Origin: Haliotis asinina
Taxonomy: Eukaryota; Mollusca; Gastropoda; Lepetellida; Haliotidae
DNA: 64,000 nucleotides
Reading direction: 5' to 3'
Assembly: GCF_037392515.1 (NCBI RefSeq)
Contig: NC_090290.1
Location: forward strand, 31,951,753-32,015,752
The notes under the pieces were generated by a model that saw nothing but the letters and a program-made list of their open reading frames with translations, had not been told where the DNA came from and made no database searches. Position numbers and translations under genes: made by a program. This document shows, piece by piece, positions 25,328 to 49,227 of the stretch (positions are counted from its first letter, which is position 1; each line of letters opens with the position of its first letter).

Positions 25328-25634
25328 AGATATTTAACTCAACAGATCGGCACTACTGTATACATAGCAGTATACATTATGTAGGATACACAGACAGCAG
25401 GAAAACAACGGTCATAGTGTCGACCTCTGTCTCACCCCCATGGCATATGATGCTGTAACTAAATTACGTAATGATTTCTTACCAGCACATTCACTTGACA
25501 CATGTATCTTGTTCAAAGTCTTGTCCACTGTCCCTCATGGCAGATTTGAATGTGATGGACGGTGGCCAGATAATTAATGAATCCCTCTGTCACTGACAAT
25601 GGATTGTATTGAGACCACTTACATCCGACTTTGC

Positions 25635-25642
25635 TATATAAA
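25635..25642 (+). promoter_or_regulatory. TATA box of the first glycine/methionine-rich gene
   Basis: TATATAAA. A start about 30 bases downstream gives a non-coding first exon of about 25,668-25,712 ending at CAACAG|GTGAGT. The same elements are conserved in the inverted copy. Confidence 0.75.
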
Positions 25643-26035
25643 CCGCACATACACCTCTCTTCCATACACTGACCACTTGTCCACCATTGCCACATTGTCA
25701 GCCCAACAACAGGTGAGTTCGCTTCTACTGTATGATCAAGTAGTATCAACCATACATTCAGTATTTCCATCTTGCACCTTTCCTCTGGTGAACCTTTTCT
25801 CGCACCGTATAAATCCTTTATTTTATAAAAATTATGATGACTGTCATATACCGAGTAAGCGTTCTGTCACTGAAACTCCAAGGTATCTCATATCTTGCTT
25901 CAGACTGAACATTTGTCTTTATCCATTCAAATGACTGAACAGACATTTCACGATCGGGATATCCATTATAAGACGTTTCTTACTACATTTACAGCATTGC
26001 AATACCGTATGACATCTGTTTCAGAAGGCAACAAA

Positions 26036-27572
26036 ATGACAGCATTTAAGTTTGCTGTATTCGCTGTGGTTTGCGTCGCAACCTATGGTAAGACATTTTA
26101 TATTATTATTGACCTTTTCTTGATTCATCTCTTGTCTGTTCAATACAGTATCAAATTTAAATGGAGGAACGCGTCTCACTTATTTCACTAAATAATAATT
26201 CTAATTCTAATAACTCATAGTAGCAGGAAAAGTCTATTTCAAATTGCCTTTAATTGCTACCTACTGAAGGGATGGTGTAAATCCAGCTTGGGTCTGTGCA
26301 GGAAGCAAGAGTACTGTGCTGTGCTAGGTGTTGGCAATACATAGCCTGCTTTTATATTGTATGTTCATAAGTTAAAGTATATTGACGTTAATAATAGTTT
26401 TTGAATGCTGTGACTTACTAGTCGTTTTACTGTCCTGTGGATATTTTCTTTTATAATTTACCTTACTTTATTGTAAAATTATAACTTGTTTGTAAACACG
26501 ATATGGCGGAAACATTGCCGATGTGACTCACTCAAAACAATTGACTTTACATTTATTACCAATAATCGCGTTGGCATAAACGTAGCTTACCCTTATGATT
26601 ACAGACGGAATACATTGTTTAGTTACCTTGAATGAACCTAGGTTTCGGCTTTAAAGCATGATTTAATTATTTATGACTTCAACAACCGCTCAAGAATATT
26701 TTAAACATTCCTAGGTCTTATGTTATTCTTTCCTTCCAGCACAAACTCCAGACATGGGTACAGGAGTGACAAATCCCACAGGCAACACAGGCAGCATGTC
26801 ACAACCTGCAGGTGGTGCTGCAAATACAGTTGGAACGGGCGGAATGACAAATCAGATGGGCGGAATGACAAATCCAATGGGCGCAATGAATAATCCAATG
26901 GGCGGAATGAATAATCCAATGGGCGGAATGAATAATCCAATGGGTGGCATGAATACTCAGATGGGTGGCATGAGTAATCCAATGGGTGGCATGAGTAATC
27001 AGATGAGTGGAATGAATTACCCGATGTCTGGTCCCTTCGGTGGTCAGTATGGCGGTATGGGAAATCAGTTCGGGAACATGGGTATGGGACCAATGGGATC
27101 AGCATTTGGGAACATGGGTGGAATGATGGGGGACATGAGTGGTCAGGGGTCTGGACAGTCTCAACACTCTGCTAGTAGCTCTATGATGCTCCCTCTGATG
27201 ATGGGAGGTGACAAGGGAAGAAACATGTTTTTGATGTCTCAGTTGATGGGAAGACAGGGCGGCAACAGCATGCTTCCTTACTTCGCTCTTAATGGTGGAC
27301 TAGGAGACAACATGATGAACATGCTTCTCTTCAGCGGTATGGGTGGAATGGGAGGCGGCCGAGGATTTAACCCGATGATGGCCATGGCTCTGAGCGGTGG
27401 TGAGATGAACAACATGCTCCCGTGGATGTTCCTTAATCAAGGAAGAAACCAGGGACAACAAGGCGGTATGCAAGGTGGAATGCAGGGCGGTATGCAAGGT
27501 GGCATGCAAGGCGGTCAGTCATCAGGAATGGGTAGTGCTCTGCCTTTCTGGCTCCTTGGAGGACAATTCTAA
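26036..27572 (+). CDS. Secreted glycine/methionine-rich repeat protein, copy A
   Basis: Coding exons are 26,036-26,087 and 26,740-27,572 (294 residues); a non-coding exon precedes them, and the ATG exon begins at 26,025 after CTGTTTCAG. The donor is TATG|GTAAG and the acceptor CTTCCAG|CACAAAC; the phase-1 intron splits the final Ala codon of the signal peptide MTAFKFAVFAVVCVATYA, so the mature chain starts QTPDMGTG. The mature protein has a short Thr/Asn/Gly-rich start, nine units of a seven-residue repeat (MGGMNNP and variants), a Gly/Met/Phe stretch, a less repetitive core (RNMFLMSQLMGRQGGN, GGLGDNMMNMLLFSGMGGMG), four GGMQ units and the end ALPFWLLGGQF. It has no cysteine after the signal peptide. 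Such composition is found in secreted structural proteins, for example methionine-rich shell matrix proteins; the function is inferred. The intron holds a LINE 3' end. Confidence 0.9.
26190..26535 (+). mobile_element. 5'-truncated LINE 3' UTR in the intron of copy A
   Basis: Resembles the 3' UTR of the LINE at 28,389-34,642: ACTGAAGGGATGGTGTAAAT, TGCTTTTATATTGTA, ACACGATATGGCGG and AACATTGCCGATGTGACT, ending CTCACTC. The same insertion is in the intron of copy B at 39,430-39,760 in reverse, so it predates the gene duplication. Confidence 0.85.
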
Positions 27573-27819
27573 ATCAGACCGCTTCTGCCTTTACTGAACG
27601 CTTGTGAGCCATGCAACGATATTTGTATATTTGTATGAAGCAATCCCAGGTACAACACTTCAAAATGCAGAGCGTCTTTTGATGCTTCAACCCTTATCAG
27701 TGATTATGTAAATAGTTTTTGTACACTTCTAGTGCATGAAGCAAATTCATAAATGTCAAAATATGTTTCCTATCTTCTCTTGGAGACAGGGCAGTACATA
27801 AATCGCATCTATGTTCAGC

Positions 27820-27825
27820 AATAAA
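27820..27825 (+). promoter_or_regulatory. Polyadenylation signal of copy A
   Basis: AATAAA about 250 bases after the stop codon, conserved in copy B. Confidence 0.65.
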
Positions 27826-28005
27826 CCTACTTTTAAACTACATTCAAGGTTTGATTTTTTCTTTGAAAAATGCACACCACAAAGGTTTTAAGCTGTTTCC
27901 ATACTTTGCATCTTCAGAAGGCAGTGGTGCGAATATAACGCAGTGTTATGAACCTGCATCTGATCTCACCATATGTCTATTTGTATGATAGACACTTTGT
28001 TAACA

Positions 28006-28174
28006 GGCATTGACACCTTAATATGTCTTCTATCTGACTTTCTTGGAGGACAATTCTAAATTACGCTTATCAAGTGGACCTTGCCCGGCTCATCCGAGAT
28101 TCATCTGCCCAACACTACAAACCGTATCTGATACGGCATTGACACCTTAATATGTCTTCTATCTGACTTTCTTG
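28006..28174 (+). repeat. 129-bp tandem unit, 1.3 copies, carrying the gene's terminal codons
   Basis: Unit begins GGCATTGACACCTTAATATG. At 28,043-28,062 it contains CTTGGAGGACAATTCTAAAT, identical to the last codons, stop and first 3' UTR bases of the neighbouring gene (LGGQF stop). The unit repeats at 28,135 and is cut off at 28,174. Copy B has three full units. Confidence 0.9.
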
Positions 28175-28242
28175 CTCTCCAAAACTCACAAACAACATAT
28201 TGATTTAATGTAGTAATGATGTAATGCACTGACTCGAAAATA

Positions 28243-28378
28243 CAAACCACAGGCAAACTATAGCGCAAATGGGGGTGTGCAGCATAGAGAATATGACAAA
28301 TCTTACATGAGAGCGAAGCGAGCAAAGGTTGGCAACGTACTTTCCTCCCTTCAGTTCATGTCAAAATAAAATATTGCC
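28243..28378 (-). repeat. Inner inverted repeat X, left copy
   Basis: Its reverse complement (TATTTTATTTTGACA, GGAAAGTACGTTGCCAACCT, CATTTGCGCTATAGTTTGCC) matches 35,275-35,431 with scattered changes. It lies between the gene arm and the LINE. Confidence 0.75.
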
Positions 28379-28388
28379 ACCATCAAAG
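28376..28388. repeat. Target site duplication at the LINE 3' side
   Basis: GCCACCATCAAAG, identical to 34,643-34,655 on the other side of the LINE. Confidence 0.85.
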
Positions 28389-28939
28389 TGAGTGAGTGAG
28401 TTAAGATTTATAGTCATATCGGCAATATTTCAGCCATATCGTGTACGAGAACATGTAATACTGAAATGAAATATATGTCTACTATAAAAACCTTTTGACG
28501 AAGGACAATAAAACAACTAGAACATCACAATTATCATTAATACTAGCGAGGAAAGATAAAACTATTATAACTATGTGGACAATACAATATAAAAACAGGC
28601 TATTGATCGCCAGCAACTGAAGATAGATCACCACACTATGGGCCATGGGGACTTACAGTACCTTCGCTACCTGCATGGACTCTAATTGGATTTACACCAT
28701 CCCCTCAGCCGCTGGCGTTTGTGGGAAATTTTAGCTAAAATTAAAACAACAAATATACTACGCTTAAAAATTCTGGTAAGTTTATATTGACTTTGAACGT
28801 TTTGGGACTTACGTACCCTCTCAGGAGGACAATAATTTTACAATACTTCAACCCCTTTTGAGGGTATAGCCACTAACAATTCAAGTTACTAATCTAAACT
28901 ACCAATCATTAAAAAACATCTATTTACAGAACATATTAC

Positions 28940-31900
28940 TCAAAATTCAACCAAAAAATCAATTTCTTTTAAAAAACCAACAACTAAATGAGAACTAACA
29001 GTGGTAAAAAGATCCTTGATAGTTTTGACATTGAAAGATTTATCCCTTGTGATGGAGAATTCAACACAGTCAAGCAGGATATGTTTGACCGTGACACTCT
29101 CATCACAAGGGATACAAAACGGAGGATCCTTACCTTTTAACAGGTAGTTATGGGTATGTCTTGTATGGCCAATACGACATCGTCGCATGATCACCTCTTC
29201 AAATCTGGACTGACAACCCAAGTGGGTACAACCAATGTAGGGTTTTATTTCATGTAGTTTATTGATACCTACTTGGGTGTCCCACTTCTTCTACATCAGA
29301 TCACGGATATAAGATCTAATGGTACTTTATAATTAGTGTATGGAATAAGAAGTTTGTTGATAGCTGCTTTGGGAGCAAGATCGGCCAATGTGTTACCAGA
29401 AATGCCTACGTGGCCGGGTAACCAACAGAAGACGATGTCGCATTGACCAGTAGCAAGATTGAGAAAATGTTCTGGATCAATGACAGTGGCACAAGTCACT
29501 GCGCCATCGTCCTTGCCCCATCTGTAAATAACGATTTATAATTGCCATATTTATGTTTTAATTGATTGTATTCTTCTTCATATTGTAATTCATTAGTTTC
29601 TGATTTTTGAAATGTACTTAATTTTAGGTCAACTTGTGGCCTAACCAATTTCCAAGGAGGAGAAGAAAGAAGTCGGGAAGGAGCTATGTTTTCCAGCTCA
29701 ATGCCAGAAGCGGCAGAAGAATTCTGAGCCCAAGAGGCGGAACAAGAGAAGACTTTTTGTGACAAATCCTCATAAAAAGAATTAAAGATACAATTAGATG
29801 CAGGATTAGACTCATTAGGAGGTAATTTTGTAATGTATTGTAAAGATAGTTTAATACGACGCTGGTTGGAAGAAGGCTCATCAGCTTCGACATAAAGATT
29901 GTGGTGGACAGAATCAAGAGGTTTAAGGTTACTTTTACAGGCTCCACCATATACGATGGAGCCATAATCGAGTTTTGAACGGACCAGTGATCGGTATAGG
30001 TGTAAGAGGGTAGTTTGATCCCCTCCCCACTTTGAGTTGGAAACAACCTTCAACAAATCTAGTGCCTTTGGGCACTTAGCTTTAAGGGATTTAATATGGG
30101 ATAAGAAGGTTAAATGAGAATAGAAAATTAAACCCAAGAACTTGGCCTCCTTGACCACTTTGATGGGAATGCCATTTAAAGTTACTTCAGGGTCTTTACG
30201 CGGCATATATTTTCTACGAAAATGTATACAATTTGTTTTAGATTTAGAAAATTTAAAGCCGTTTTCAAGATACCATTTATTTATTTTGTTTAAACACAGC
30301 TGCAGTTGCCGTTCAATAGTATGCATATTTTTACCACGACAGGAAATATTATAATCATCCACAAATAACGATCCATCAATTAAATCGTTTAAAACTTTAG
30401 ATGAACTGTTGATCTTGATGCTAAAAAGAGTGACAGACAAAATACTTCCTTGTGGAACACCCTAATCCTGATTGTAATGATCATACTGGGTAGAACCCAC
30501 GCGGACCTGGAATTGCCTGTTATTTAAAAAGTTGGATATAAATTCAGACAAACGACCTTGCAAGCCGAAGTCATGTAAATCTCTTAAAATGCCGTATTTC
30601 CAGGTTGTGTCATATGCTTTTTCTAGATAAAAAAAGACAGACACAGCGCGTATATTTATTAATTAGTGCGTTTTTAACAAATGATTCCAAACGCACTAAG
30701 TGATCAACGGTACTTCTGTTTTTACGGAAACCACACTGAATATCTGTAATTAGATCATTGGTTTCCAAGTACCAAACAAGTCGATTATTTATCATGCACT
30801 CCATGGTTTTGCAAACACATCTCGTTAGCGATATAGACCGATAGTGCGAAGAATCGGTATGATCACGTCCAGGTTTAGGGATAGGGATAACTATAGCATC
30901 ATGCCATGAAGAAGGAAACTTGTCCAGATGTCCAGATGTCCAGATATCATCAAATATATGTTAAAGGGTCTCTAAACATGATTGCGGTAAATGTTTCAGA
31001 AGTTGATAATGGATGTTATCAGCTCCTGTAGCAGTATCATTGGCCTGGTCAAGAGCTGTATGGAGCTCATGAATCAAAAATACCTCGTTGTAATCTTCTC
31101 CGTTATCTGAAGTAAAATTAATAGCTTTCTTTTCTTGCTGTTTTTGATACTTTTGGAATTGAGGTACATAATTCGAGGAAGAAGAATGCTGTGCCAGTGT
31201 TTCGCCAAATTATTGGCTATATCTGCCTTATTAGTTAATAACTGGTTTCCGTCTTTGAGATGGTGAACACTAGATCTAGAGCGATTACCTTTGATTTTCT
31301 GGATCATATTCCATACCTCAGATATAGGTGTTCGCGAATTGATATCAGATACATAGTTTTGCCAAGATTTACGTTTACTTTGCTTGAAAGTACGCCGAGC
31401 ATTTTTTAGCATTTTGGATTTTAGATTTGTTCAAATGAACCAAAGGGTGATGACGGAAATAATGATCGGCCTTTTCCCGTGCCTTCCTAGCTTGTTTGCA
31501 ATCAGAGTTAAACCATAGTTTCCTTATCTGTGAAATTGTAGAGGACTTTGGGATACACTCATCAGCAATGGTGTTTAGTATGTCAGAGAAATCTTTTAGA
31601 GCATCTGGAACAGTTAGGTCTAAGTTTGTCAGCACACAGGGTTTCATATAAAGTCCAGTTGGCCTTTCTAAAATTCCATTGCAATGATGGCGGAACATCA
31701 GATGGGTTGACAGGTTTTAATATTGTTGGGAAGTGGTCACTTCCACATAGGTCATCATGGACTGACCACTCAAATTCACTAAATAGGGTGGAATCAGTAA
31801 TTGATAAATCGAGAGCTGAATATGTTCCCGTGCCAGGATGTAAATATGTCTTTGAACCATCATTATAAATGCATAGATCATTATTTGAGATCAAATCCTC

Positions 31901-32358
31901 CAGTAATTTACGTTTGGTATTTGTGTTAGTACCACCCCAGAGTGGGTTGTGGCCATATAAATCACCCATGATCAAACAGGGTTTAGGCAGTTGATCATAA
32001 AGAGCTTGCAAATCACTTAACTGAACAGCAGAAGATGGTGGAAGATACAATGAACAAAGGGTAAATGCAACATGTAATGTAAGTCGCACTGCCACGGCTT
32101 GGAGACTTGTTTTGAGCGTGCCTTGACTATGAATAACATTATTCCTCACCAGGATAGATGATCCACCAGCAGCCCTGCCGCCTGGGGGAGAAAAATAATG
32201 GTATGCATTAAAATGACGTAGATCAGATCAAAATTATTCGTCTGCTTTAGATAGGTTTCATGAATGCAGAATATTGACAGATTAAGATCTTGGACTAACC
32301 GTTGTAAGTCATTAAAATTAGTTCTGAGTCCTCTACAATTCCACTGAATTATAGACAT
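28940..32358 (-). pseudogene. LINE ORF2 (endonuclease, RT, RNase H) pseudogene
   Basis: Endonuclease 32,358-31,590, reverse transcriptase about 31,000-29,900, RNase H about 29,560-29,300 and C-terminal Cys/His region 29,221-28,940. It copies and inserts element RNA at nicked DNA in intact relatives. Multiple frame shifts and stops between these blocks; not functional. Confidence 0.88.
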
Positions 32359-33561
32359 TATTTCTTCCGAGGAGGATGTACAGGAGATCTGCCCAGCGCC
32401 TTCCTTGACGATGACAAGCTATGTGTCCTATCACTTTGGTTGATTTTGTTTAACTTTTGATTTCCTTTGACAGTTTGTTTAGCCAGAGCTTCATTTACCT
32501 TTTTGGACGAACACGAACCTGTTTTGTGTTTTAAAGAAGCATTTTCATTGTTAGTGTTTGTTTTATCCGATTGTGTCATAGGGCATGTAGAACCGTTTGG
32601 TGAAGAAGACACAGACCGAGATTGAGATGCCATCAGTCTGTGTAGCAAATCCTCCTCGTTCTAAAAGATCTTCAGGTGAGGTTGATTTTATCCATGTCAG
32701 TTCTGCCTGACATTCAACTGAGGCTGTAGTTGGAGATGGTCGTTTGGTAACTGAAGCATAAGACGCACTTTGATCAAAAGATGGAAAGAGTTCCTTCGCT
32801 TCAGCATAGCTAATGTTTTGAGTGTGCTTTAATTTAATCACCTCCATTTCCCTCTTCCACACTGGGCACTCTTTTGATGATGATGAATGTTTCCCAGAAC
32901 AGTTGACGCATTTTTTATAGTTGCTTTCACAATCTTCTGTCACGTGGGATTGCCCTCCGCAATGACCGCAAGTTATAGGATTTAAGCAAGAAGTTACCCC
33001 GTGACCAATTTTTTGACATTTAAAGCATTTAAGTGGATTTGGGATGTACTGTTCAACTTGCAGATTACAGTACCCTGCTTTGATAAATTTTGGTGCAGTT
33101 GGAGATACAAATGAGAACAGGTACGTATGCGTTGGAATTGAGTTCTGACGTCGAGTAAATCGTTTCACGTATGTGACACCTTGATCTTTAAGTTCGCACA
33201 CGATGTCAAGGTCTGTCATGTCCTCCAAAAGATGATCCCTATCCCTAACAATACCTTTACTTGAATTGAGGGTCCGGTGGATAGACAGGAGATCCAGCTA
33301 AACTATCTGCTAAATTTCTTGTCGTTTGCTGCATTCTATGAGCAACGATCCAGATCTCAGTCTTTTGATATTTTTGACATCACCAGCTATACCATAAACT
33401 GCTTTAGAAACAATAAACACAGGTTCATTTTGATTCGTTGTTTGTCCGGAGATTCCATAACCAGCAATCGTGGCCAGTAGTCTATTTGTTTGGATGTCCT
33501 GCAACTTTCAGTTGTACTTTATCGAGTTGACGTTTCTTTTTAAAGGGGTTTCAAGGTCCAT
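32358..33561 (-). pseudogene. LINE ORF1 (gag-like, zinc knuckle) pseudogene
   Basis: Starts MDLETPLKRNVN, continues with LLATIAGYGISGQTTNQ and RLRSGSLLIECSKRQ (RNA-binding N-terminal part as in I/Jockey ORF1), then LNSSKGIVRDRDHLLEDMTD, three CCHC knuckles (CFKCQKIGHGVTSC, CGHCGGQSHVTEDC, CVNCSGKHSSSSKEC) and a Ser/Lys/Asn-rich tail ending RKK. It is interrupted by an early stop and at least two frame shifts. Its TAA overlaps the ATG of ORF2. Confidence 0.85.
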
Positions 33562-33708
33562 GTTGTGCTGTATAGTTTCATCATCCGAGCTCCCCACCCG
33601 CCATGGAGTATCACAAGGACAATGCTGAAGCAAGCGGATCTCCAGCTTGCAACACCAAGGATACTCGGATGAAATACTCAAGTAGAATAATCACAAAGTA
33701 ATTACTCT

Positions 33709-34642
33709 ACCAGACTGGTCCATGAGCCACCGCCTTCTGGGCATTACAAAATTGAAGTGTCTCATTTGAAATTCAAATATATAATGATTTAGCCAAGACA
33801 TCTGATAAAACTTTAAAAAGTTTCGGAAATTTTTGCAGCAGAATATACATACTCAGGGCTTGGCATGACCAGCCGATTGGTTGAACCGGGCCCATTTAAC
33901 CACCCGTCTAGGCGAAGTCAGGGCCAACGTGGTGTATTGAGCAGCAGGAACAATGTTACAGGCCCCTATTGCTCTCAACCACCAGAATCCCTTTCTCCGC
34001 CGACACAGGGCCGCAACCCACGGCAAACGGGTTGGTGGACCAAATATCCCCCGGGTCCATTACGGGGGTGTCGGCGAGCTCTTGGCGTTACCCAGCACCC
34101 ACCACGAGGAGGTGGCTCGCCACGGGTGCCCCAGAGATACAGGTATGTTATACATCAGAGAATATGACATGAATAGCTGGTTCTGCCCGTGACAAGAAAT
34201 TGGAGACATACATCATTTAGAGGTCAACATCACTAGATTGGCCCATGAGCCACCGCCCTCTGGCATAGGACTTAAGGCAAGTTATCGTAATCAAATGTTG
34301 TACAGTGTAGATCAAAATAACCATGACCAATGATAACGTATTGTGCAAACATAATCACCATGCGCAGGGCTTGGCGTAACCAGCTGATTGATAGAACCGG
34401 GCCAGTTCTACCACCCATCTAGGTGAAATAAGGGTCAAAGGGATGTGTTGAGCAAAAGGAACACGGTTGGAGGTCCCCGATGTCCTCAACCCCTAGACTC
34501 CCGTCCTCCACCGACACAGGGCCGCAACCAACGGCAAACGGGTTGGTGGACCAAATATGACCCCGGGTCCACACACTGGGGGTTGGCGAGCACTTAGCGT
34601 TACCCAGCACCCACCAGGAGGAGGTGGCTCGCCACGGGTGCC
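33709..34642 (-). repeat. Tandem 5' UTR units of the LINE
   Basis: Two diverged units of about 527 bases: 33,709-34,235 and 34,236-34,642 (the outer one truncated). Shared blocks include CATGAGCCACCGCC, CAGGGCTTGGC, GACACAGGGCCGCAACC, GGCAAACGGGTTGGTGGACC and GGTGGCTCGCCACGGGTGCC. Repeated promoter monomers are known in the 5' UTRs of several LINE groups. Confidence 0.8.
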
Positions 34643-34655
34643 GCCACCATCAAAG
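34643..34655. repeat. Target site duplication at the LINE 5' side
   Basis: GCCACCATCAAAG, identical to 28,376-28,388. Confidence 0.85.
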
Positions 34656-35274
34656 GTTCACACTCCCATTTCCTCACTTGGTTGTGCTCTCAGATTTCCA
34701 TCCTCATATTTAGTAAGTACTCACGTGAAATATGTTTTATTCAACACTGTAAGCGCCGTGCGTGGTATTCGGATCGTTCTTCGTCTCCATTACCCCTGTC
34801 AACTTCCTGTTGAACTGAGTGACGGAAGAAGAATAAGCAGAAATTAAAAAGAAATACTAGTACCATATTGCCTAATTTTATCATGAACCCGTTGGAGTTT
34901 ATTTGTCGTATCTGGCGTCGCTATTGTTAGAATTTTCGTAACATTTGTTCTACACCTGATGTAATGGGCGAATGAAGCAGGAGAGGTAAGTGTTAGTATT
35001 CCATGTGTAATAATACCCTCTTGTAGCTTCACTCTGTTGGACCGGAAGCTGGAAGGGGAATGGGGGCTAACAACGGTCTGATATACCTAGTTCATATGAA
35101 TAAACTCTTATTCCAGCCAAGGCCTACACCGAGCACACCTTGGTATAGTGCCAAGTCGTCTAGTTATATGCTGGACTAGATATACCACGAGTTGCGCCTC
35201 ACATGTCGAATAAAAAATATTTCACGTGAGTAATTATTCAACATAGGACTGGACATGTGACAACACAACCCAGT

Positions 35275-35431
35275 GGTGCTGGTGATATTTTATTTTGACA
35301 CAAAATGTATTTTTCGAAACCAAAGCGAGGAAAGTACGCTGCCAACCTTTGCTCTCTTCGCGCGCATGTAAGAAGACTGGTCATTTTCTCTATGCTGCGC
35401 AACCCATTTGCGCTACAGTTTGCCTGCACAC
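35275..35431 (+). repeat. Inner inverted repeat X, right copy
   Basis: Matches the reverse complement of 28,243-28,378. About 2.1 kb separate it from the right gene arm, compared with about 70 bases on the left side. Confidence 0.75.
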
Positions 35432-35682
35432 AGACATGCCGATTGAAATTTTGCAACAAGAAAGCGCTCCCTTATATGTAAGTGGAATAAAATATGTTTT
35501 GTTTTTTTTAACACGCTAACCGTTACCTGGCTTAACTGACCATATTTCATTAAGCAGACTCGGTGTGGTCTTATTTAAAGTTTGTACTTCCTTTCAACGT
35601 TTCTACATTGTGTATCGATCAATGTTTATCAAGAAATCAGGTGGCTAAGGTTATTCCTGAAAGGATTTTTGTATTTGTCAGC

Positions 35683-35822
35683 AACTGGTGACCGTACGTC
35701 CCCATAATCCCCAGCGAGTCTGACCACCCGATCCCGTTAGTCGCCTCTTACGACAAGCATAGTCGCCTTTTGTGGCAAGCATGGGTTGCTGGATGTCTAT
35801 TCTACCCCGGACCTTCACGGGT
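35683..35822 (-). repeat. SINE head fragment
   Basis: Carries CTGACCACCCGATCCCGTTA, GACAAGCATAGTCGCCTTTT, CAAGCATGGGTTGCTG and GACCTTCACGGGTC, the non-tail part of the SINE family seen at 149-395. Confidence 0.8.
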
Positions 35823-36397
35823 CACTTCAGAAGAGCTAATATGACCCGTGTTTAGGTCATACTCCGTCAGATCACACACCTATGGCAATACTGTCATCAC
35901 CTGATCGCCAAATGCCCAATCTTTATAGAAAAACATGTTAATGCTGATAATACCTCAGCACAGACTGTTTGACATACGTGGTTAACCCCGACATTTGGCA
36001 GGGTTTACTTATTTTGTTGTTTGTATGCGAGTTGGGATGTAACGATGTATAGAACTATCCATGGATCGCAATTGTTGAGTCTCCAATAGCAATTAATCGA
36101 TTGCAGAAAAGAAGAAAAATATCGATGGATCGATAGCATATGTAAGTATAGATTGTTTAGAAATAACTTCCTCTGACAAATACGCAGAGCTAAATCTTTA
36201 TTGAATGTTTATGTTGTTTTGTATTAATTGAAGAGTTTGGATGCAGACTTGCAGCGTGATTGAGTTTAAGTTTTAATTGCTTACTGTGGGCTATAAGTTC
36301 CTTGTCAGTCATGAAATGAGACTGAAAATTCTTCATATTTCATATAAATTATACATTGGTTTTGGGAATGACTTGAAATAGGGCAAAGAGAAGAAAC

Positions 36398-36465
36398 TAT
36401 TGCAATAGTAGACTATCGTTATCGCAACTGCATGTTGCAATAGACTATCTCTGTCGCAGTAGTAG
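36398..36465 (-). repeat. Decayed inverted copy of the 32-bp tandem unit
   Basis: Reads ACTATTGCAATAG then ACTATCGTTATCGCAACTGC; its reverse complement resembles the array flanking the LINE at 21.5 kb. Confidence 0.55.
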
Positions 36466-37575: not shown

Positions 37576-37962
37576 ATCAGATACGGTTTGTAGTGTTGGG
37601 CAGATGAATCTCGGATGAGCCGGGCAAGGTCCACTTGATAAGCGTAATTTAGAATTGTCCTCCAAGAAAGTCAGATAGAAGACATATTAAGGTGTCAATG
37701 CCGTATCAGATACGGTTTGTAGTGTTGGGCAGATGAATCTCGGATGAGCCGAGCAAGGTCCACTTGATAAGCGTAATTTAGAATTGTCCTCCAAGAAAGT
37801 CAGATAGAAGACATATTAAGGTGTCAATGCCGTATCAGATACGGTTTGTAGTGTTGGGCAGATGAATCTCGGATGAGCCGGGCAAGGTCCACTTGATAAG
37901 CGTAATTTAGAATTGTCCTCCAAGAAAGTCAGATAGAAGACATATTAAGGTGTCAATGCCTG
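37576..37962 (-). repeat. 129-bp tandem unit, three copies
   Basis: Units at 37,576, 37,705 and 37,834, almost identical to one another. Each contains ATTTAGAATTGTCCTCCAAG, the reverse complement of the last codons of the neighbouring gene. Unit junctions carry the 15-base palindrome CCGTATCAGATACGG. Confidence 0.95.
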
Positions 37963-38140
37963 TTAACAAAGTGTCTATCATACAAATAGACATATGGTGA
38001 GATCAGATGCAGGTTCATAACACTGCGTTATATTCGCACCACTGCCTTCTGAAGATGCAAAGCATGGAAACAGCTTAAAACCTTTGTGGTGTGCATTTTT
38101 CAAAGAAAAAATCAAACCTTGAATGTAGTTTAAAAGTAGG

Positions 38141-38146
38141 TTTATT
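38141..38146 (-). promoter_or_regulatory. Polyadenylation signal of copy B
   Basis: AATAAA on the minus strand, at the position equivalent to 27,820-27,825 in copy A. Confidence 0.65.
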
Positions 38147-38393
38147 GCTGAACATAGATGCGATTTATGTACTGCCCTGTCTCCAAGAGAAGATAGGAAA
38201 CATATTTTGACATTTATGAATTTGCTTCATGCACTAGAAGTGTACAAAAACTATTTACATAATCACTGATAAGGGTTGAAGCATCAAAAGACGCTCTGCA
38301 TTTTGAAGTGTTGTACCTGGGATTGCTTCATACAAATATACAAATATCGTTGCATGGCTCACAAGCGTTCAGTAAAGGCAGAAGCGGTCTGAT

Positions 38394-39938
38394 TTAGAAT
38401 TGTCCTCCAAGGAGCCAGAAAGGCAGAGCACTACCCATTCCTGATGACTGACCGCCTTGCATGCCACCTTGCATACCGCCCTGCATTCCACCTTGCATAC
38501 CGCCTTGTTGTCCCTGGTTTCTTCCTTGATTAAGGAACATCCACGGGAGCATGTTGTTCATCTCACCACCGCTCAGAGCCATGGCCATCATCGGGTTAAA
38601 TCCTCGGCCGCCTCCCATTCCACCCATACCGCTGAAGAGAAGCATGTTCATCATGTTGTCTCCTAGTCCACCATTAAGAGCGAAGTAAGGAAGCATGCTG
38701 TTGCCGCCCTGTCTTCCCATCAACTGAGACATCAAAAACATGTTTCTTCCCTTGTCACCTCCCATCATCAGAGGGAGCATCATAGAGCTACTAGCAGAGT
38801 GTTGAGACTGTCCAGACCCCTGACCACTCATGTCCCCCATCATTCCACCCATGTTCCCAAATGCTGATCCCATTGGTCCCATACCCATGTTCCCGAACTG
38901 ATTTCCCATACCGCCATACTGACCACCGAAGGGACCAGACATCGGGTAATTCATTCCACTCATCTGATTACTCATGCCACCCATTGGATTACTCATGCCA
39001 CCCATCTGAGTATTCATGCCACCCATTTGATTTGTCATTCCGCCCATTGAATTTGTCATTCCGCCCATTGGATTATTCATTCCGCCCATTGGATTATTCA
39101 TTGCGCCCATTGGATTTGTCATTCCGCCCATCTGATTTGTCATTCCGCCCGTTCCAACTGTGTTTGCAGCACCACCTGCAGGTTGTGACATGCTGCCTGT
39201 GTTGCCTATGGGATTTGTCATTCCTGTACCCATGTCTGGAGTTTGTGCTGGAAGGAAAGAATAACATAAGACCTAGGAATGTTTAAAATATTCTTGAGCG
39301 GTTGTTGAAGTCATAAATCATTAAATCATGCTTTAAAACTGAAGCCTAGGTTCATTCAAGGTAACTAAACAATGCATTCCGTATGTTATCATAAGGGTAA
39401 GCTACGTTTATGCCAACGCGATCATTGGTAATAAGGTGAGTGAGTTAAGATTTAAAGTCACATCGGCAATGTTTCCACCATATCATGTTTACAAACAAGT
39501 CATAAGTTTGCAATAAATAAAGGTAAATTATAAAAACCTGTCAGGAAAGGACAGTAAAACAAACAGTAAATCACAGAATTGAAATCAAAACTATTATTAA
39601 CATCAATATACTTTAACTGATGACTATACAATATAAAAGCAGGCTATATAACACCTAGTACAGCACAGTGCTCTTGCTTCCTGCACAGATCCAAGCTGGA
39701 TTTACACCATCCCTTCAGTAGGTAGCAATTAAAGGCAATTTGAAATAAACTTTTCCTGCTACAATGTGATGAGTTATTAGAATTAGTAAAATAAGTGAGA
39801 CGAATTCCTTCATTTAAATTTGATACTGTATTGAACAGACAAGAGATGGATCAAGAAAAGGTCAATAATAATATAAAATGTCTTACCATAGGTTGCGACG
39901 CAAACCACAGCGAATACAGCAAACTTAAATGCTGTCAT
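38394..39938 (-). CDS. Secreted glycine/methionine-rich repeat protein, copy B
   Basis: Coding exons are 39,938-39,887 and 39,247-38,394 (301 residues), with splice sites and phase-1 intron identical in position to copy A. A non-coding first exon is about 40,307-40,262. The signal peptide MTAFKFAVFAVVCVATYA is unchanged. The protein differs from copy A by a few substitutions near the start (GMTNPIG for GVTNPTG) and by one extra seven-residue unit: MGGMTNS-MGGMTNQ where A has a single MGGMNNP. From the MGGMNTQ unit to the C-terminus the two proteins are identical as far as I can read. Both copies look intact, with promoter and polyadenylation signal, so both may be expressed; their transcripts converge. 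Function inferred as for copy A. Confidence 0.9.
39430..39760 (-). mobile_element. 5'-truncated LINE 3' UTR in the intron of copy B
   Basis: Plus-strand reading starts GTGAGTGAGTTAAGATTTAA and runs through ATCGGCAATGTTTCCACCAT and TACAATATAAAAGCAGGCTA. It is the counterpart of 26,190-26,535, retaining more of the ACTC tail. Confidence 0.85.
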
Positions 39939-40331
39939 TTTGTTGTCTTCTGAAACAGATGCCATACGGTATTGCAATGCTGTAAATGTAGTAAGAAACG
40001 TCTTATCATGGATATCCCGATCGTGAAATGTCTGTTCAGTCATTTGAATGGATAAAGACAAATGTTCAGTCTGAAGCAAGATATGAGATACCTTGGAGTT
40101 TCAGTGACAGAACGCTTACTCGGTATATGACAGTCATCATAATTTTTATAAAATAAAGGATTTATACGGTGCGAGAAAAGGTTCACCAGAGGAAAGGTGC
40201 AAGATGGAAATACTGAATGTATGGTTGATACTACTTGATCATACAGTAGAAGCGAACTCACCTGTTGTTGGGCTGACAATGTGGCAATGGTGGACAAGTG
40301 GTCAGTGTATGGAAGAGAGGTGTATGTGCGG

Positions 40332-40339
40332 TTTATATA
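40332..40339 (-). promoter_or_regulatory. TATA box of copy B
   Basis: TATATAAA on the minus strand, about 30 bases before the inferred start of the non-coding exon (40,307-40,262, donor CAACAG|GTGAG). Confidence 0.75.
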
Positions 40340-40647
40340 GCAAAGTCGGATGTAAGTGGTCTCAATATAATCCATTGTCAGTGACAGAGGGATTCATTAA
40401 TTATCTGGCCACCGTCCATCACATTCAAATCTAGCATGAGCGACAGTAGACAAGACTTTGAACAAGATACATCTGTCAAGTGAATGTGCTGGTGAGAAAT
40501 CATTACGTAATTTAGTTACAGCATCATGTGCCACAGGGGTGAGACAGAGGTCGACACTATGAACGTTGTTTTCCTGCTGTCTGTGTATCCTACATAAAGT
40601 ATATCGCTATGTGTACAGTAGTGCTGATCTGTTGAGTTACATATTTC

Positions 40648-42640
40648 ATCGGAATAAATCCACGCCTACTTCTAAGCGTATTGTATTTTACACATTGCAC
40701 ATTCCCGGCACAGTAAATATTTCTCAAACACATGTTACGATCTAATATAACAATAAAGAGTTCACGTAAACATAAATTATTGGCTTATAGGGAAGCTGTC
40801 GGTTATCGGGACGACGTTGCTTAATGTATGTTCGTTACAATATATATTGTTTATACGAATTTGTTTTTTCATGTTTTTTGGTTGTCTTCTTTCTTCCGTG
40901 TGGTTTGTATTTTCAGTCCCTGTAAATACGACACCTAGACATATTTAATACATCTAGATCTGTGGGCTGTTGTATGTCGAATAAAAGTTGAAAAATGAAT
41001 GGCGCAGATATGCGATGTTATACCACAATGTATGGGCTTTGTCGTTCGTGTTTAATGTTATAAACATATTGCCATTCGCTCTGTCGCCACACATCATAGG
41101 AGTAAGACATACATAAACTTTACAATCACCTATTTTGTACTGGATATAAATCTAAACGAAAGCAACAGATGTCATAGGAACACACAATGTGTGCAGCTAC
41201 TTATCATTTTAAGAGATACAAGCAGTTATTACATGTGCTGGGGATGGGAGCATGATGACAATAATCAAATCATTCTGAACGGGGGGAAGATAACATACAG
41301 TCCTGCTATTCTTACTATGCTACTGCTGATTTATGATTGTTCACTGACATTGATTCATTGTCTTACTTACGGAGAAGTAAGTCATGGAAGTAAATCTAGA
41401 GTCATGCCCCAACTTATACGATGGGGTTTTTCTGTGGGTGTAAACATTCATATATCTATCTCGGGTTGTTATCTGGCATCGATTTCATCAGCATTCGATG
41501 TGAAATATTATCTCTACTTCAACATCTTGAAGAGCCCTGCAAATGCTAATTACCCATGGACTAAAATGCATTTAGTCCATTACACTGTTGCATTTCATAT
41601 GCAATTTTGATCGTTATAAAGACCAGTTTATGACATGTTAATCCATTGCATGTTCACTATACATACATTTTCCAATTAGGCTTTTGTCATATTTGCTGGC
41701 TTTAGTTAGCTTTAAGCCTGTAATACTTCAGTCATTATTACAGTGCATTACTATTATAGACGAACGAATTGACGTCATCTTAAACTTTAAATAAGGCACC
41801 TTTGAAATGTATAGGCTTACAGGCAGAGCATCCTGATTTCTCGTGGTCAGATTGTTGACGGTGCCGTGTCGGAGAATTTATCCACAGATCCATGTATTGT
41901 TTCCAGCATAGGTTGATATGTGTTATTCGAAAACTAAGTCACTTCAAACTATAATTTTTCAACCTAACTTTAGGTACGACATTTCGTGCCAATATTATTT
42001 TTGTTATTGATATTTAGTGTAAATTTAAACGTCTTTATATGTACCTTCAGGTGTCCTTATCGTTTAACAGGAATCTACATATAATGTCAATAAAAACGGA
42101 TACCTTTATGGCTATCATTATTTTCTCGTGATTGTTTCGATCAACGAATTCCGGGCGTGGTCTTAATTGATGTAATGTCTGACAGGTAACGTAAGCACGT
42201 GTTTCGCGTGCTTGACCTCAGGTCAAATTTCTCTTGTGTCTTGTGTGCTATATGAAACACTGATCCAGAGCGTACACGTGAACTGTGTTGTCCCACAATG
42301 CAAACACCAAGAATAAAATCATCTATGAGTTTAACAAGAATGAACTAGAAGTAGTGTCCCCATGTTATCAAAATTACAATTTACAAACAGTGCGTTGAAG
42401 GATGATCTCCCCTGATCTCTACTGGATCCGAAAAGCCGGGGTCCGTCTCAAGTTATACAGGTACGGACTGACCTGTCGGATTTCGTGGCAGGACTCTCTG
42501 AAGATGACCGAGTGTTGATTTTAGTTTTGAGTTGTTCCCTCAAGCTGTACAAACGACTCGACATCTCTAGTAAATCTGACCCGAGGTCATGCAGGTGAAA
42601 CACACGCATGTGTTACTTGTCAGAATTACATCATTGGGCG
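40648..42640. other. Unassigned stretch
   Basis: No gene recognised. A 139-codon open frame at 41,191-41,610 on the plus strand has some hydrophobic stretches but no recognised domain or splice context. Confidence 0.4.
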
Positions 42641-42780
42641 ATGTATGTATGTATGTATGTATGTATGTATGTATGTATGTATGTATGTATGTATGTATGT
42701 ATGTATGTATGTATGTATGTATGTATGTATGTATGTATGTATGTATGTATGTATGTATGTATGTATGTATGTATGTATGT
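42641..42780. repeat. (GTAT)n microsatellite, 35 units
   Basis: Perfect 140-base tetranucleotide run, followed by an impure GT run to about 42,835. Confidence 0.98.
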
Positions 42781-45700
42781 GTGTGTGTGTGAGTGTGTAT
42801 GTGTGTGTGTGTGTGTGTTTGTTTATGTGTGTGTCTTTGACAAAAGATGGTTTTGAATGAGTTGAATGAAATTTATGGACTGCAGCAGTCGTGCCCAACT
42901 TAAACAGACGGTGTTTGCCGTCGTAGTTCGCCGACATGCGTGGATATAAATTCGAGGATAAGAGAAGATCACAAGGATTGCGTGTAGCGTCTTCTGCAGT
43001 CGTATATTACGTGCTGGACTACATGACAATAATGGTGTGGAGGTCACGAACGGATGGGATGCTGTTGAGGTCACGGACGGATTACTATTGCAGGACGAAT
43101 GCACTTGTTGACTAATAATACAGGAAAAAGATCTCAACAGAAACCAAATGATTTATGTAAATCAATCAAAACAATCGTTGAAGATTAGCTCACTGAAACG
43201 TGTTTCTTGTTGTCTGTGTTATTGATCGCAGCCATTATGGAGAGTATTAATGAAACTAGACCAATATATACACTGTGTTAGATATGTACACAGCTCACTC
43301 TCCCTTTCACATGTCAAGCAGTCCAACAGTCCAGGTGTCGTTTAACCCGATTGTTTGGCTCTTCAGCTGCAGCCTTCGTTCACTTCAGTGACGCTTGCTC
43401 TCGCAACAAAATAGAGAATTCCATTTACGGATCTATGCAGCGATTCAAAACATACAACGTAAATGTAGATACAGCAAATTGCATCTAAGGTGGTAAGGTT
43501 CTTGAAGTTTTCATCAACCTTACACAAGATATTAATCTCACTGAGCGATTACATGATTTAATGTTATATGTGTCAAGCACATGTTCAAAATGGTCGATAG
43601 GCGAGTCTCCGTGTTTCACATCATTGATATTTACTACATAGATAATGGACGATGGCATCCATACTCCTAATAGTAAAGGTAAATATATATTTACATCACT
43701 GGCACTTACACTGTGTATTAATGCAATACATTACACGTGAAAAAAGCTAAAACATGAAACTCAAGAGACTTAGCAGTAGACGTCATGGTAAACAAGCATG
43801 CATTGCATTTTATGTTTTATTGAAAAGATTGTTTGATAAAAACAAAAACAGACACTTGCGTGGGCAACGGTTCTACTAATAAAGGTAAATAATATTTTAC
43901 ATAATTTGTACTTCCCACACCGATTATGACTGCGTGAGTGTAATTCTACACAGCTATATCTAGGCGTCACGCATCATACCCATATGGGAAATCGAATTAG
44001 GGTTGTTTGGAACGTTGTTGTTTGACCAGCCGGGACTTGCTTTGTCTGGAAACTACCTACTGAAGGACGGAATGGTGGGTTAACACTAAGTTATGCCATC
44101 TATAGATTGCATCGTGCAGGGCATGCACGAAGGGGGCCCTATCTACACTACCACCTAAATCTACCAGTCAAGTGCAGTCAGCATTGGGCCTACTGGGGAT
44201 GCTGAGAAAGCGTGCCAACCTAAACTAGCTGGGTTGCTGTAACAACCATCCTGACTGTACAATCAGGCCCTAGCATCGACACTACTCCATGTGTAGTCGG
44301 CGTGGGGAGCGGGCGTACTATGGAGCCACCATGAGACAAAAGCTCATCCCATCGGTCCCTCGGAAAGCCAGTGTACTGAGGCCTGTGTGGAAGAGTTTTG
44401 AGGGACACAACACCAAATCCAGAATGTGCAAGGGTTCCAGCGTCTGAAAGAAAAAGATTTATGCATAAGCATCAGGAATCACATTTCTCGCGTATGTTGA
44501 TTGGTTTGATAACATCGAGTAATTGTGGTTTTATGTCGCTATTAGCAATATTCCAACGGCGGGCATCAGAAGTTGTCATATGTTCACATATAATTAACAA
44601 AACACTTTGAAACTGATCATTATCATACGGGTAATACATATTCAGGTCAAACGAGTGATGAAGCCAATGACGAGTGGGATTAAGTAGTGACAAGAAACAG
44701 ACGCAATGCTTAGATAGTCACTGGTTTGATTATTTCTTCATAGGCCTATGGTATGTAGTGGTCTCTATTGATCAAAGGTGAAGGAGTTGGCAAATAGTCT
44801 CAAACACATCCTAGGTCATCCTGAAGTTTGGAAGCTATTGCTGATCATCTTAGATTTCTTGAACCTCTTGCCACCATCATCTGCTTAGAGATGGGTTGTT
44901 CTCTTGCAAATTACGATCCAACAGCAAGGACAATGGCCTGGATGAACTTAGCTCTCTCGCGACATCGTCTTAATCTGTCCCAAATTAGTGGGTGCATGTA
45001 AGCGCTACCAAAACGTGCCTTTTGCTCCTGGGGCTATATATACCCGCAAAGGAAAATATATCTATAGGTTGCCCTAAACATTGCTGAAACAAACAGTGCC
45101 TGACTTGACACCACTGACGTCGGGGTTGATACCAGAACGGCACCTGTCACAGGCAGCGGAGAGTAGGAGATGGTGGCACCAAAATACATGAGATGACGTT
45201 ACTAAGGGGGAATGTATCAAAGGACACGCCTGTTCCGAGTATAGTGTTCCAGTGGGATATTTGTGTTAATCTCCATTGTGCCATCAACATGAAACTCGTA
45301 GCTGTCTGATCCCGAACAAAGTACAACACAAATGAGCTTTCATATAAGTCAATGAAATAATCGTGATTGGTTTTACCTTTGTTTTGCTGCACATCCAACT
45401 TAAGTCAGCCCTGAGGCCTGCGTGAACAGACTTTCCCGTTAATGGAGCTCCAGCTGCTGCAAGCTGCCGGTGAGAATGCTATATGACTTTGCCGGAAATG
45501 TAGGTGTGTGCGGTGATATTAGGGAATTCTTGTATTGTGAGGTGGGTTTGATCTGAGACAGACGTGGGATGAATTGACTGAATTGATAGAGCCCGTGGTA
45601 GAATATAGAAGACCCTGACCCGACCTTGATTTCTTTGAGTAGCATATTAGAAATACAATATGTACAAACGTTATGGATGACAACTTATTATTTCGCGAGT

Positions 45701-46245
45701 GTATGGACTGGTATTTCCCAACGGAATTGGGAACCTGTGTCATTTTAATTTAGAATTCCAATTAAATTAGTAAATTAATGTCTACAAAATCACACCTTAC
45801 ACTTAGAGAGGCTTTCATGAATGGGAATATCACACAACTCTTCAGGAGTAATGCTGCTGCAATTAGTAGTCTCTCCTGTTCATGTTTTCTGTGTTGGACA
45901 TCACCTAACATTTGTATAAATGCTGAGTACATTTGCTGACTTAAAGTATGCTCAACAACTCAAAATATGTGACGTTTGATCGTTGCGACAGTTAAAACTC
46001 ATATAAATAACATTTTTGCTTATGTTCTGGTATGAAGTGCCTTCCTGGTTATTGGCTTGCCACACGTGCGACTAAACTAAGAGATCTTTACGTGAGAAGT
46101 AACTCGGAAGAGTTACTGGAATCAGTTCTACAACAGACACGAATCACATTTCACTGTCAGCAAGCAATCTTCAGTGTTTTTAGATACCCCTGTGAGGAGA
46201 AATAAGCCCAACAATAAGACAATTGTATGTAACACATTCGAGTTG
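42781..46245. other. Unassigned stretch
   Basis: GT-rich to 42,835, then no recognised gene. A SINE tail fragment lies at 44,512-44,575. The interval about 44,030-44,460 has higher GC than its surroundings and may be a repeat, but I cannot name it. Confidence 0.4.
44512..44575 (-). repeat. SINE tail fragment
   Basis: GGTTTTATGTCGCTATTAGC followed by AATATTCCAACGG, the tail block of the SINE family. Confidence 0.6.
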
Positions 46246-46251
46246 TTTATT
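46246..46251 (-). promoter_or_regulatory. Polyadenylation signal of copy C
   Basis: AATAAA on the minus strand about 390 bases after the stop codon of the third glycine/methionine-rich gene. Confidence 0.5.
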
Positions 46252-46638
46252 ACAAGACAACATGCGGTACACAACAGCGGTTTAAGCCAGAGAACCTGTA
46301 CATTTGTTTCTAAGTTTCTAGGGCCCACCGTCACTGCAGAAATACTAAAGTTGATTATGCACAGAGCAAAACACTTGAGTGCAAAATGTTTTGATTACAT
46401 TCGCAGCAGTAACATGCTTCTTCTGGATCTTCACAGTTGAAGTTGAAGTTATCGAACCTTCAAGATATGTCTTATTACTTCAGAAGGCTTTCAAGTGTAG
46501 ATCATACGTTCTTACCAAAACCTGAGCTATGAGTCAATATGTGACCAGGTTCATGATCACGTCTCAGGTTAACAGATAGTCAAAGTCTGGTCTCTGCCAC
46601 AACTGATTTGAACTCCCAGGAACAAAGCTGTGAACGAC

Positions 46639-48820
46639 TTAGAGGTTTCCACCAAGCAGCCAGAAAGGCAGAGCACTGTTGACTCCTCCCTGTTGTCGCT
46701 GACCGCCCTGCACACCCCTTCCTTGGCTTCCTTGTCCCTGATTCATGAAGAAATAGGGAAGCGCATTGTTGATCTCACCGCCGCCAAGAGCTAGTGCCAT
46801 GAGTGGATTCATACCACTCATCATTCCTTGACCACCTCGGCCGCCTCCCATTCCACCCATGCCACTGAAAAGAAGCATGTTCATCATGTTGTCTCCTAGT
46901 CCACCGTTCAAAAAGAGGTATGGAAGGATGCCGTTGCCGCCTTGTCTTCCCATCATTTGAGACAAGAAATACATGTTTCTTCCCGCGTCACTGCCCATGA
47001 ATGGAATGAATGACATTGGGTTTCCAAATCCTTGCTGCTGGCGCTGGTTTCTTCTCTTGCCATATTGGCCCATGCCAAAGCCTCCTCTTGGACCACCATA
47101 TCCTCCGTAAGGATTCATGTTTCCGTAACTGCCGCCCATTGCTCCGTATGGAGGAACCATGCCGCTCATCGGCCCACCCATACCCATTGGACCACTCATG
47201 GGTCCACCCATAGAACCACCCATTGGACCACTCATGGGACCACCCATAGGACCACCCATTGGACCACTCATGGGACCGCCCATACCCACTGGACCACTCA
47301 TGGGGCCGCCCACAGGACCACCCACTGGACCGTTCATAGGACCTCCCACTGGACCTGTCGGTGAACCTGTTGGGGCCCCCATGGATCCTCCAATAGCTCC
47401 AGTAGGCGGCCCACTGGTTGGAGCAGCTGTCGGGCCTGTCGGACCTTGTGCTGCAACAGAGTGGAGACGCATTATGTCTTGTTGGCGGAGAATCACCAAA
47501 CGTTACTATAACTGTAACCCCATGACATGACATCAGCGTTGTGAAAATGTCGTAAGAATTAGGGTCAATTATGTGGTCAGACAACTGGATTCGTCACAAG
47601 AGAAATTAGCATAATTCAAATGCTAATCGATTCCTCATATCTCTAGACATTTTTAAAAATCGAACTTTTCTGGAGTGAGTAAGTGAAAAGTTAAAATAGT
47701 GAATGAACCAATGTTCTCGTAAAGGTCAGCACGTGATGCTCCACTGGCACGTGTAATGCGGAACGAGCAATATACATACATGACTGTCCTTCCTATCATT
47801 ACCAGTGCCCCTCATATCCAAAATGGATGTCTTAGCCAATACTGGCATTCTAATATATAAACGATGTGTAACTTTGTTCATTACCAGCCTGATGCAATGA
47901 CAAAGGAGGGCATGATAACAACATAGACTTAATCCATAACAATCAGTGTAACTGATGATGCTTCCTTTTCTGTAGATGTACGCCTCTGTTTGGCATATCA
48001 TACATTATAAATAACTGCAGTTTAGGGGAAATAAGTTGTAATCTAAAAGCATGTTCGGTCAGATTATTAACTGAAATGTTTTAGGTTTCTATCATAGCAC
48101 TGAATTTTCTAAAACGCGCGGAGCACACATGGTAAACAAAAACAGGTAACTATTAAATTAAACATTAACTCACTCAGTCATGCCCTGGATTTACACCGTA
48201 CTCAGCAATATTCTTGCTATGAAACGACGAAATAGATTCAGAATTTTGTCCTAGCGCTACACAAAAGGTGTCCACAGTGTGGGATAATAAAAAAAAACGA
48301 AAAAAACCCAAAAAACAAACAAACCAAAAACCAGTAGGTTTGTGTCCTGAATCACCCATTCCATACACCCACACACACTCGTTCCCATACGCTGACCTCT
48401 TGCAACAAGCAAACCGTGAATAAGTGGGATCCCTTTTACGTTACGAATCTTAAACGACGTACTCGTTGTGGTTACGTTATTTCCATAAGTTGCTGGTAAG
48501 TAAAGGCGTCCAAAAGAAAACATCACCCGAGATCATTTAGTACCTTCTAACGTTGAAATGTCACATTTCGATTCTAAATCAAGAATCTCAATCAAGAATG
48601 GTTTAGACAAATTGAGGTGTTTTTATCGTGTAATATTTCCACGGATCTTTCACACAATGCATACAAAGCGCCTTCAACGAGATACAATGTACATTCAGTT
48701 TATGAAGAAATAGCCTACAAGTACATTTCAAAAGGTATTCAGTATTTCGATGGCATTTCGACACTTACCGTATATCGAGACGAAAACCAAAGCCAAAGTA
48801 GCACATCTGAATGCTGCCAT
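46639..48820 (-). CDS. Secreted glycine/methionine/proline-rich repeat protein, copy C
   Basis: Coding exons are 48,820-48,769 and 47,450-46,639 (287 residues). The first coding exon has the same 52 coding bases as in copies A and B and the same phase-1 split of the last signal codon (TACG|GTAAGT to TTGCAG|CACAAGG); the signal is MAAFRCATLALVFVSIYA and the mature chain begins QGPTGPTAAPTSG. The repeat region differs (MGGPMSGP-type units with much proline), followed by a Tyr/Gly part (YGNMNPYGGYGGPRGGFGMG). The C-terminal core is clearly homologous: GRNMYFLSQMMGRQGGN, GGLGDNMMNMLLFSGMGGMG, GGGEINNALPYFFMNQG and ALPFWLLGG. Its exon starts at 48,831 after a pyrimidine-rich acceptor, and a non-coding first exon is about 49,193-49,144. 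An older paralog of the A/B pair on the same strand as B; probably secreted and structural (inference). Confidence 0.9.
48187..48235 (-). repeat. SINE tail fragment inside the intron of copy C
   Basis: GGATTTACACCGTACTCAGC then AATATTCTTGCTAT matches the SINE tail block. Confidence 0.6.
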
Positions 48821-49220
48821 CTCGTTTGTAACTGCACAAAAGAGAAAAAAGAAGTGTATGCCTCAGTATTATCTATGAACGTCGTACAACGTCGTATATC
48901 TAACATTACTTTGCAGTTGATTTATGTAAATAGTGAGATAATTCCAAGTATTTACTTGTCTGAGTCATGGTGTAATTGTGTTTTTTCACGTGCCGGTTGA
49001 TTTAAAATCAAAGGATATCAAAAGTCTGAAACACCCACATGAAAATAAATGGAAATAAATAAAAACATACATGTACCGCATCTTTAGGGATGCAAAGATA
49101 CATTTTCAGGTATATGGACACAAAGTGCCTACAGCATGCCTACCTTTGACGCACTTGGGCCAACGGATTGTGTACTGGAGCATCCAAATTGGCTTGTGAG
49201 GGGGAAGTGGTGTCCTCTTG

Positions 49221-49227
49221 TTTTATA
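49221..49227 (-). promoter_or_regulatory. TATA box of copy C
   Basis: CCTATAAAAC on the minus strand, about 30 bases before the inferred non-coding exon (49,193-49,144, donor TCAAAG|GTAGGC). Confidence 0.75.

Follow-up and report, generated by a model that had tools for sequence, protein, structure and literature searches.

Introduction

The described protein that most resembles the products considered here is an uncharacterised nacre protein of the abalone Haliotis laevigata, CLC_12027/idb_54497, for which a signal peptide, a transmembrane prediction, disorder and G/M-rich repeats directly after the signal are reported (PMC6003135). Gly, Met and Pro each exceed 10% of its residues, and it is the sole row of Table 1 of that paper that lists Met above 10%, as G/M/P. 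The protein accounts for 5.30, 6.70 and 11.7% of three acid-soluble nacre fractions and for <1% elsewhere (PMC6003135). We analyzed a 64,000-nucleotide stretch of the Haliotis asinina genome (contig NC_090290.1, positions 31,951,753 to 32,015,752; the window), which holds three genes, A, B and C, for predicted secreted proteins rich in Gly and Met. Each protein joins a repeat arm to a Met-rich C-terminal core, and by sequence comparison this core appears to be common to about 28 loci of the same genome: A, B, C, about 24 on a contig that we call C7, and one on contig C9.

Two further groups of molluscan proteins have a bearing on these genes. The H. asinina shell proteins ML5A7, ML6A10 and ML8B1 are secreted, contain 7-11% Met, are Ala/Leu-, Ala/Pro- or Gln-rich, and have sizes of 25, 12 and 11 kDa (PMC2989941). 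The digestive-gland protein vdg3 of molluscs (records AAX11341 and ABB76764) is described as small, very highly expressed, developmentally regulated and encoded by several similar genes.

Results

Gene Models of A, B and C

The three models were rebuilt from the raw DNA, with splicing and transcription starts inferred from sequence.

25635-25712, forward strand: gene A, TATA box (25635) and short first exon without an ATG; donor after 25712; transcription start inferred
26025-26087, forward strand: gene A, exon 2, 63 bases; ATG 26036; signal peptide; last base is the first base of the split Ala codon
26740-27572, forward strand: gene A, exon 3, encoding the entire mature protein: MGGMNNP-type repeat arm, then Met-rich core (~27171-27569)
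27820-27825, forward strand: gene A, AATAAA polyadenylation signal
40262-40339, reverse strand: gene B, TATA box (40339) and first exon; donor after 40262
39887-39949, reverse strand: gene B, exon 2, 63 bases; ATG 39938
38394-39247, reverse strand: gene B, exon 3; core ~38397-38795
38141-38146, reverse strand: gene B, AATAAA polyadenylation signal
49144-49227, reverse strand: gene C, TATA box (49227) and first exon; donor after 49144; in-frame upstream ATG 49183
48769-48831, reverse strand: gene C, exon 2, 63 bases; ATG 48820
46639-47450, reverse strand: gene C, exon 3: MGGPMSGP-type repeat arm, tribasic KRR (47050-47058), Met-rich core (~46642-47016)
46246-46251, reverse strand: gene C, AATAAA polyadenylation signal

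An earlier note on this DNA had proposed a fixed plan in which a TATA box and a short first exon are followed by a 63-base signal exon, an intron that interrupts one and the same Ala codon in phase 1, and a single exon for the mature protein; every element is present in the DNA of all three genes. Exon 2 carries a GTAAG donor, CAG ends the acceptors of exons 2 and 3, and intron 2 divides the Ala codon as G|CA. Genes for secreted proteins commonly have a phase-1 intron where the signal peptide ends. The signal peptides, judged from hydropathy and cleavage site rather than with SignalP, end in YA|Q (TYA|Q in A, IYA|Q in C). The same note had called the first exon non-coding. That description is secure only for A and its copy B, whose first exon is identical, because the first exon of C holds a further ATG (49183) that shares the frame of the main start; its context is weak, and the exon may be coding, with a possible 17-residue extension.

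The precursors of A, B and C have 294, 301 and 287 residues, and the mature proteins 276, 283 and 269. Gly makes up 26.8, 26.9 and 30.5% of the mature proteins and Met 18.8, 19.4 and 12.3%; Ala stays below 4% and Cys is absent. A and B have a calculated pI of 6.8, and C one of 10.3. G/M-rich repeats sit right after the signal in all three, with ~30 Gly/Thr/Asn/Ser residues preceding the MGGM units in A and B. As the earlier note had recognised, the arms differ (MGGMNNP in A and B, MGGPMSGP in C) while the C-terminal core is shared. The tribasic KRR between arm and core of C is absent from A and B; a protease might cut there and release the arm.

Two comparisons set these frames apart from chance. 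Between the cores of A and C, dN is 0.22, dS 0.74 and dN/dS 0.30 in the proposed frame, and dN/dS ranges from 0.5 to 1.7 in the other five (codons reading as stops dropped), a pattern that shows the A/C core to be under protein-level constraint. Exon 3 of A and B differs by a single indel of 21 bases, and intron 2 by five (13, 5, 6, 4 and 3 bases), three of which are not multiples of three. We regard A, B and C as confirmed, on these sequence signatures, to be genuine genes. Silent sites in a 25-residue block common to A and C are not significantly more conserved than those in the remainder of the core (p 0.28); in the comparison with all other codons, p is 0.026.

A Core Shared by About 28 Loci

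We inspected by eye the Met/Gly-filtered frames of at least 70 residues in the window and its 100-kb flanks, and of these only A, B and C seemed related. The search was extended to the whole genome (1.14 Gb, with the window on contig C11). At E up to 1 the core of C gave 16 matches: the three window genes, a single place on C9 (E 2e-4), and twelve places on C7, where the best E is 0.006 and most values exceed 0.05. Two queries taken from C7 members enlarged the C7 set to ~24 places, which share one strand and span 45.915 to 46.055 Mb; these queries also brought back A and B (E 3.7e-6 and 6.9e-6). C is tied to this array by its own core query and by the profiles described below. The earlier note's three-gene family was therefore a large undercount, and the ~28 loci are themselves a lower bound. 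Of the ~24 C7 places, 15 were read (L033-L044 and L046-L048). The full-length C query matched itself, A, B and seven other places (on C15, C2 and C1 and at C9:32.28 Mb); the alignments of these seven are confined to query residues 18-123, which do not include the core, and the seven were rejected. One of them, on C15, was read and is an SGPV-type repeat.

Twelve representative cores (A, C, nine from C7 and the one from C9, leaving out the near-copies B, L039-L043 and L047) align over ~75 residues with a common LP-G-D-MMM-LP-NxG-MNP pattern, in full LPxxMxGxDxGxxMAxxxMMM...NxMLPxxxMNxG...MNPxxMMxL. A profile comparison of the cores, of the kind that the earlier note had put forward as a check, bore out the relationship: with held-out profiles, each built without the subfamily being scored, all 12 cores outscored every one of their own 500 shuffles, the C9 core being lowest at 19.3 bits. 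A profile built from C7 alone gave 48.3 bits for the core of A, 26.2 for C and 1.2 for C9, against best shuffles of -0.4, 7.5 and -6.4 (1000 each); a longer C9 sequence scored -7.0. In a tree of the 12 cores only one of nine inner branches meets both support limits, that joining A with C.

The gene plan is shared as well. All 15 C7 loci read have a signal-like exon with a phase-1 donor ahead of the mature exon (phases 0-2 scanned), and three of them offer a phase-0 candidate as well. The donor is GTRAG in 11 and weaker in four (GTGGG, GTACG and GTACT twice), these four having been added to the scan only after being seen. An A|Q acceptor was found in 12 of the 15 and was looked for but not located in L046-L048; the signal ends VYA|Q in 8 of 10 array precursors with both exons joined. 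The signal exon of the C9 gene was not located.

The arms vary far more than the core: MGGMNNP in A and B, MGGPMSGP in C, Asn/Met-rich in the array member L036 and Gln/Pro/Ser-rich in the C9 gene. Nine of the ten joined array precursors are 133-147 residues long, and L036 has 282. Met ranges from 11.5 to 18.1% and Asn from 11.5 to 21.5% in the 12 array loci tabulated, and none of the 15 mature proteins tabulated contains Cys. Part of the array alternates two gene types in steps of ~4.6 and ~4.8 kb, and alternate copies are 99.0-99.6% identical (three pairs compared), which suggests high dosage.

Database comparisons named no known family. Pfam gave no match above its cut-off; one weak hit, Omp85 against L048 (E 0.038), falls below it. 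The single PDB sequence match, 6su9 (E 0.0005), falls in the repeat arm and was taken to reflect composition. In the open literature searched, no text contained any of six core or repeat strings, and none named a Met-rich core family.

Comparison with Shell Proteins

Gene C and the H. laevigata nacre protein have the same composition at the level described, with only Gly, Met and Pro above 10% (30.5, 12.3 and 11.5% in mature C, where Ser follows at 6.3%), and in both a secretion signal is followed by G/M-rich repeats (PMC6003135). C is the probable counterpart of that protein, matched by its described composition and repeats and not by sequence. Pro reaches 5.8% in A and 5.3% in B, and the corresponding entries above 10% would read G/M/N for A and G/M for B.

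Other candidates compare less well. A Gly-rich secreted protein described in PMC6003135 resembles A-C in its short GMGA repeats and its expression in nacre-forming mantle, but it is rich in Ala and Gln and has QQQV repeats, unlike A-C. H. laevigata idb_20008 (GMGNPM/T repeats) was ruled out as Q/G/P-rich with a run of ~24 Gln (PMC6003135). Composition also excludes ML5A7, ML6A10 and ML8B1, as described in the accessible part of PMC2989941, and Has-GRBP, as far as its description was available. MRNP34, a methionine-rich nacre protein of pearl oysters known to us through citation, is alike by name only. The portions consulted of PMC1676022, PMC4660305, PMC3374290, PMC6007483, PMC4521380 and PMC5105077 contained nothing closer to A-C.

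A and B as Arms of an Inverted Duplication

Genes A and B lie in two inverted segments.

25325-28174, forward strand: arm 1, holding gene A; 95.6% identity to arm 2
37792-40649, reverse strand: arm 2, holding gene B; 95.6% identity to arm 1, with patchy divergence

Identity is lower in the upstream part (94.2%) and intron 2 (90.5%) and high in intron 1 (99.4%), the repeat part of exon 3 (98.6%), the core (100%) and the 3' region (100%, then 99.7%). The cores are identical over 402 aligned bases, stop included. When the 88 mismatches were merged into 57 events and shuffled 20000 times, the longest identical run (965 bases) was never reached, and the longest non-coding identical run (401 bases) was reached in 6 shuffles. 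These alignments show A and B to lie on the arms of a recent inverted duplication, apparently homogenised in patches. The pattern is most simply read as gene conversion between the arms; unequal mutation rates along them are the alternative.

Between the arms lies a LINE-type element (29499-33297, reverse strand) with endonuclease and reverse transcriptase domains in separate frames. A 129-base repeat (28006-28174 and 37576-37960) is present in three copies beside B and ~1.3 beside A; it includes 20 bases that duplicate the last part of the coding sequence, stop codon included.

Other Features of the Window

A rhodopsin-type G-protein-coupled receptor frame of 380 residues occupies 9790-10929 (reverse strand), and a similar-looking frame of 395 residues lies ~2.4-3.5 kb left of the window start. 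A 39-base tandem repeat (7471-8298) has 21 copies, with one frame open for 137 and 146 residues on either side of a stop.

Discussion

On balance, and by a modest preference, we favor the view that A, B and C are secreted, Cys-free matrix proteins that form one branch of the Met-rich core family, that C is most likely the nacre counterpart, and that A, B and the array serve in the same kind of extracellular material. Once the signal has been removed at YA|Q, the repeat arm would stay disordered. The core, with its short Met- and Leu-rich stretches spaced by Gly, would self-associate through Met and Leu faces and give a cohesive, water-poor gel that needs no disulphides, and the differing arms would tune solubility and binding partners. 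C would then correspond to a major acid-soluble nacre protein, and A, B and the array would contribute to such material in the shell or in another secreted structure. A works-like analogue is yeast Pbp1 (ataxin-2), whose Met-rich low-complexity region forms droplets and hydrogels that peroxide dissolves; yet Pbp1 is intracellular and unrelated, and we claim no homology (PMC8394241, as far as the available text goes). Since the H. laevigata shell holds peroxidase-like proteins and a predicted superoxide dismutase (PMC6003135, available part), Met oxidation in the shell is plausible.

A number of observations weigh against this interpretation. The identity of C with CLC_12027/idb_54497, drawn from the published description, is only probable, and the motif order differs on paper: the published motif is written [GMPG/MXn], and C has GPMG and GPMS but no literal GMPG (PMC6003135). 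The nacre protein carries a transmembrane prediction, while the best 19-residue hydropathy mean in mature C is 0.95; the published prediction may refer to the signal. The earlier note's comparison with structural shell proteins gains support for C from composition, but not for A and B: like the C7 array, they fit no composition row in Table 1 of PMC6003135, and that table gives no support for shell use across the family. Neither of the two C7-member genome queries returned C, and the C9 link is weak on both profile scores. Four of 24 scored array matches continue past a stop codon, which is probably where the member itself ends. AlphaFold, run from 3 sequences, gave a mean pLDDT of 38.8 and no secondary structure, so that a folded core is without support.

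The strongest rival is that most of the family acts outside the shell, chiefly as a gut, mucus or larval secretion, with C in the shell a side branch or a coincidence of composition. We consider it unlikely but serious. The shortness of most joined array precursors fits it, as does the partly near-identical, alternating layout of the array, as expected for high dosage, and Table 1 of PMC6003135 has no N/M-rich rows. The C7 array could even include vdg3, which is described as having a short, highly expressed transcript (in one mussel, 501 and 531 bases) with several variants; this likeness is one of size and copy number only. As the identity of A-C, vdg3 was set aside on size, the predicted A-C transcripts exceeding 1 kb, and it remains a candidate for the array. 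Against the wider proposal, C agrees with the nacre protein, as described, in three residues at once.

A role as secreted metal scavengers, with Cu(I) or another soft metal held by the Met motifs, seems improbable. The MGGM units of A and B do repeat an MxxM spacing, which resembles that of copper transporters, but MGGM is not a repeat unit in C or in the array proteins read, and the tabulated mature proteins lack Cys. We also doubt strongly that the proteins are sacrificial antioxidants whose Met scavenges peroxide made in shell cross-linking: the shell enzymes noted above and the melting of Met-rich condensates on oxidation (PMC8394241, available text) are in its favor, but the core keeps the order of Met, Leu, Pro and Gly, which implies more than Met content. 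That these are low-complexity DNA or decayed copies with no protein product is very improbable, for although the repeat arms are open in antisense too and one array copy (C7:45986884-45987116) is split between frames, the in-frame dN/dS, the in-frame indel, the conserved splice sites and the recurrence of the core at ~28 loci all speak against it.

Returning to the matrix-protein interpretation, a broader proposal can be offered tentatively, with less confidence than the assignment of A, B and C: that a previously unrecognised domain, the Cys-free, Met-rich LP core, has multiplied to ~28 genes within a single mollusc genome and been joined to low-complexity arms of differing chemistry, to give modular secreted materials whose cohesion is Met-based and might be switchable by oxidation. 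Fast evolution often makes repeat-rich shell proteins untraceable. Here the conserved core unites proteins with unlike arms into one family, so that family spread and arm replacement can be followed. One abundant, uncharacterised nacre protein may thereby gain a gene, a gene plan and relatives. If true, the use of Met as the main cohesive residue, without Cys, would represent a way of building extracellular materials that has been little explored.

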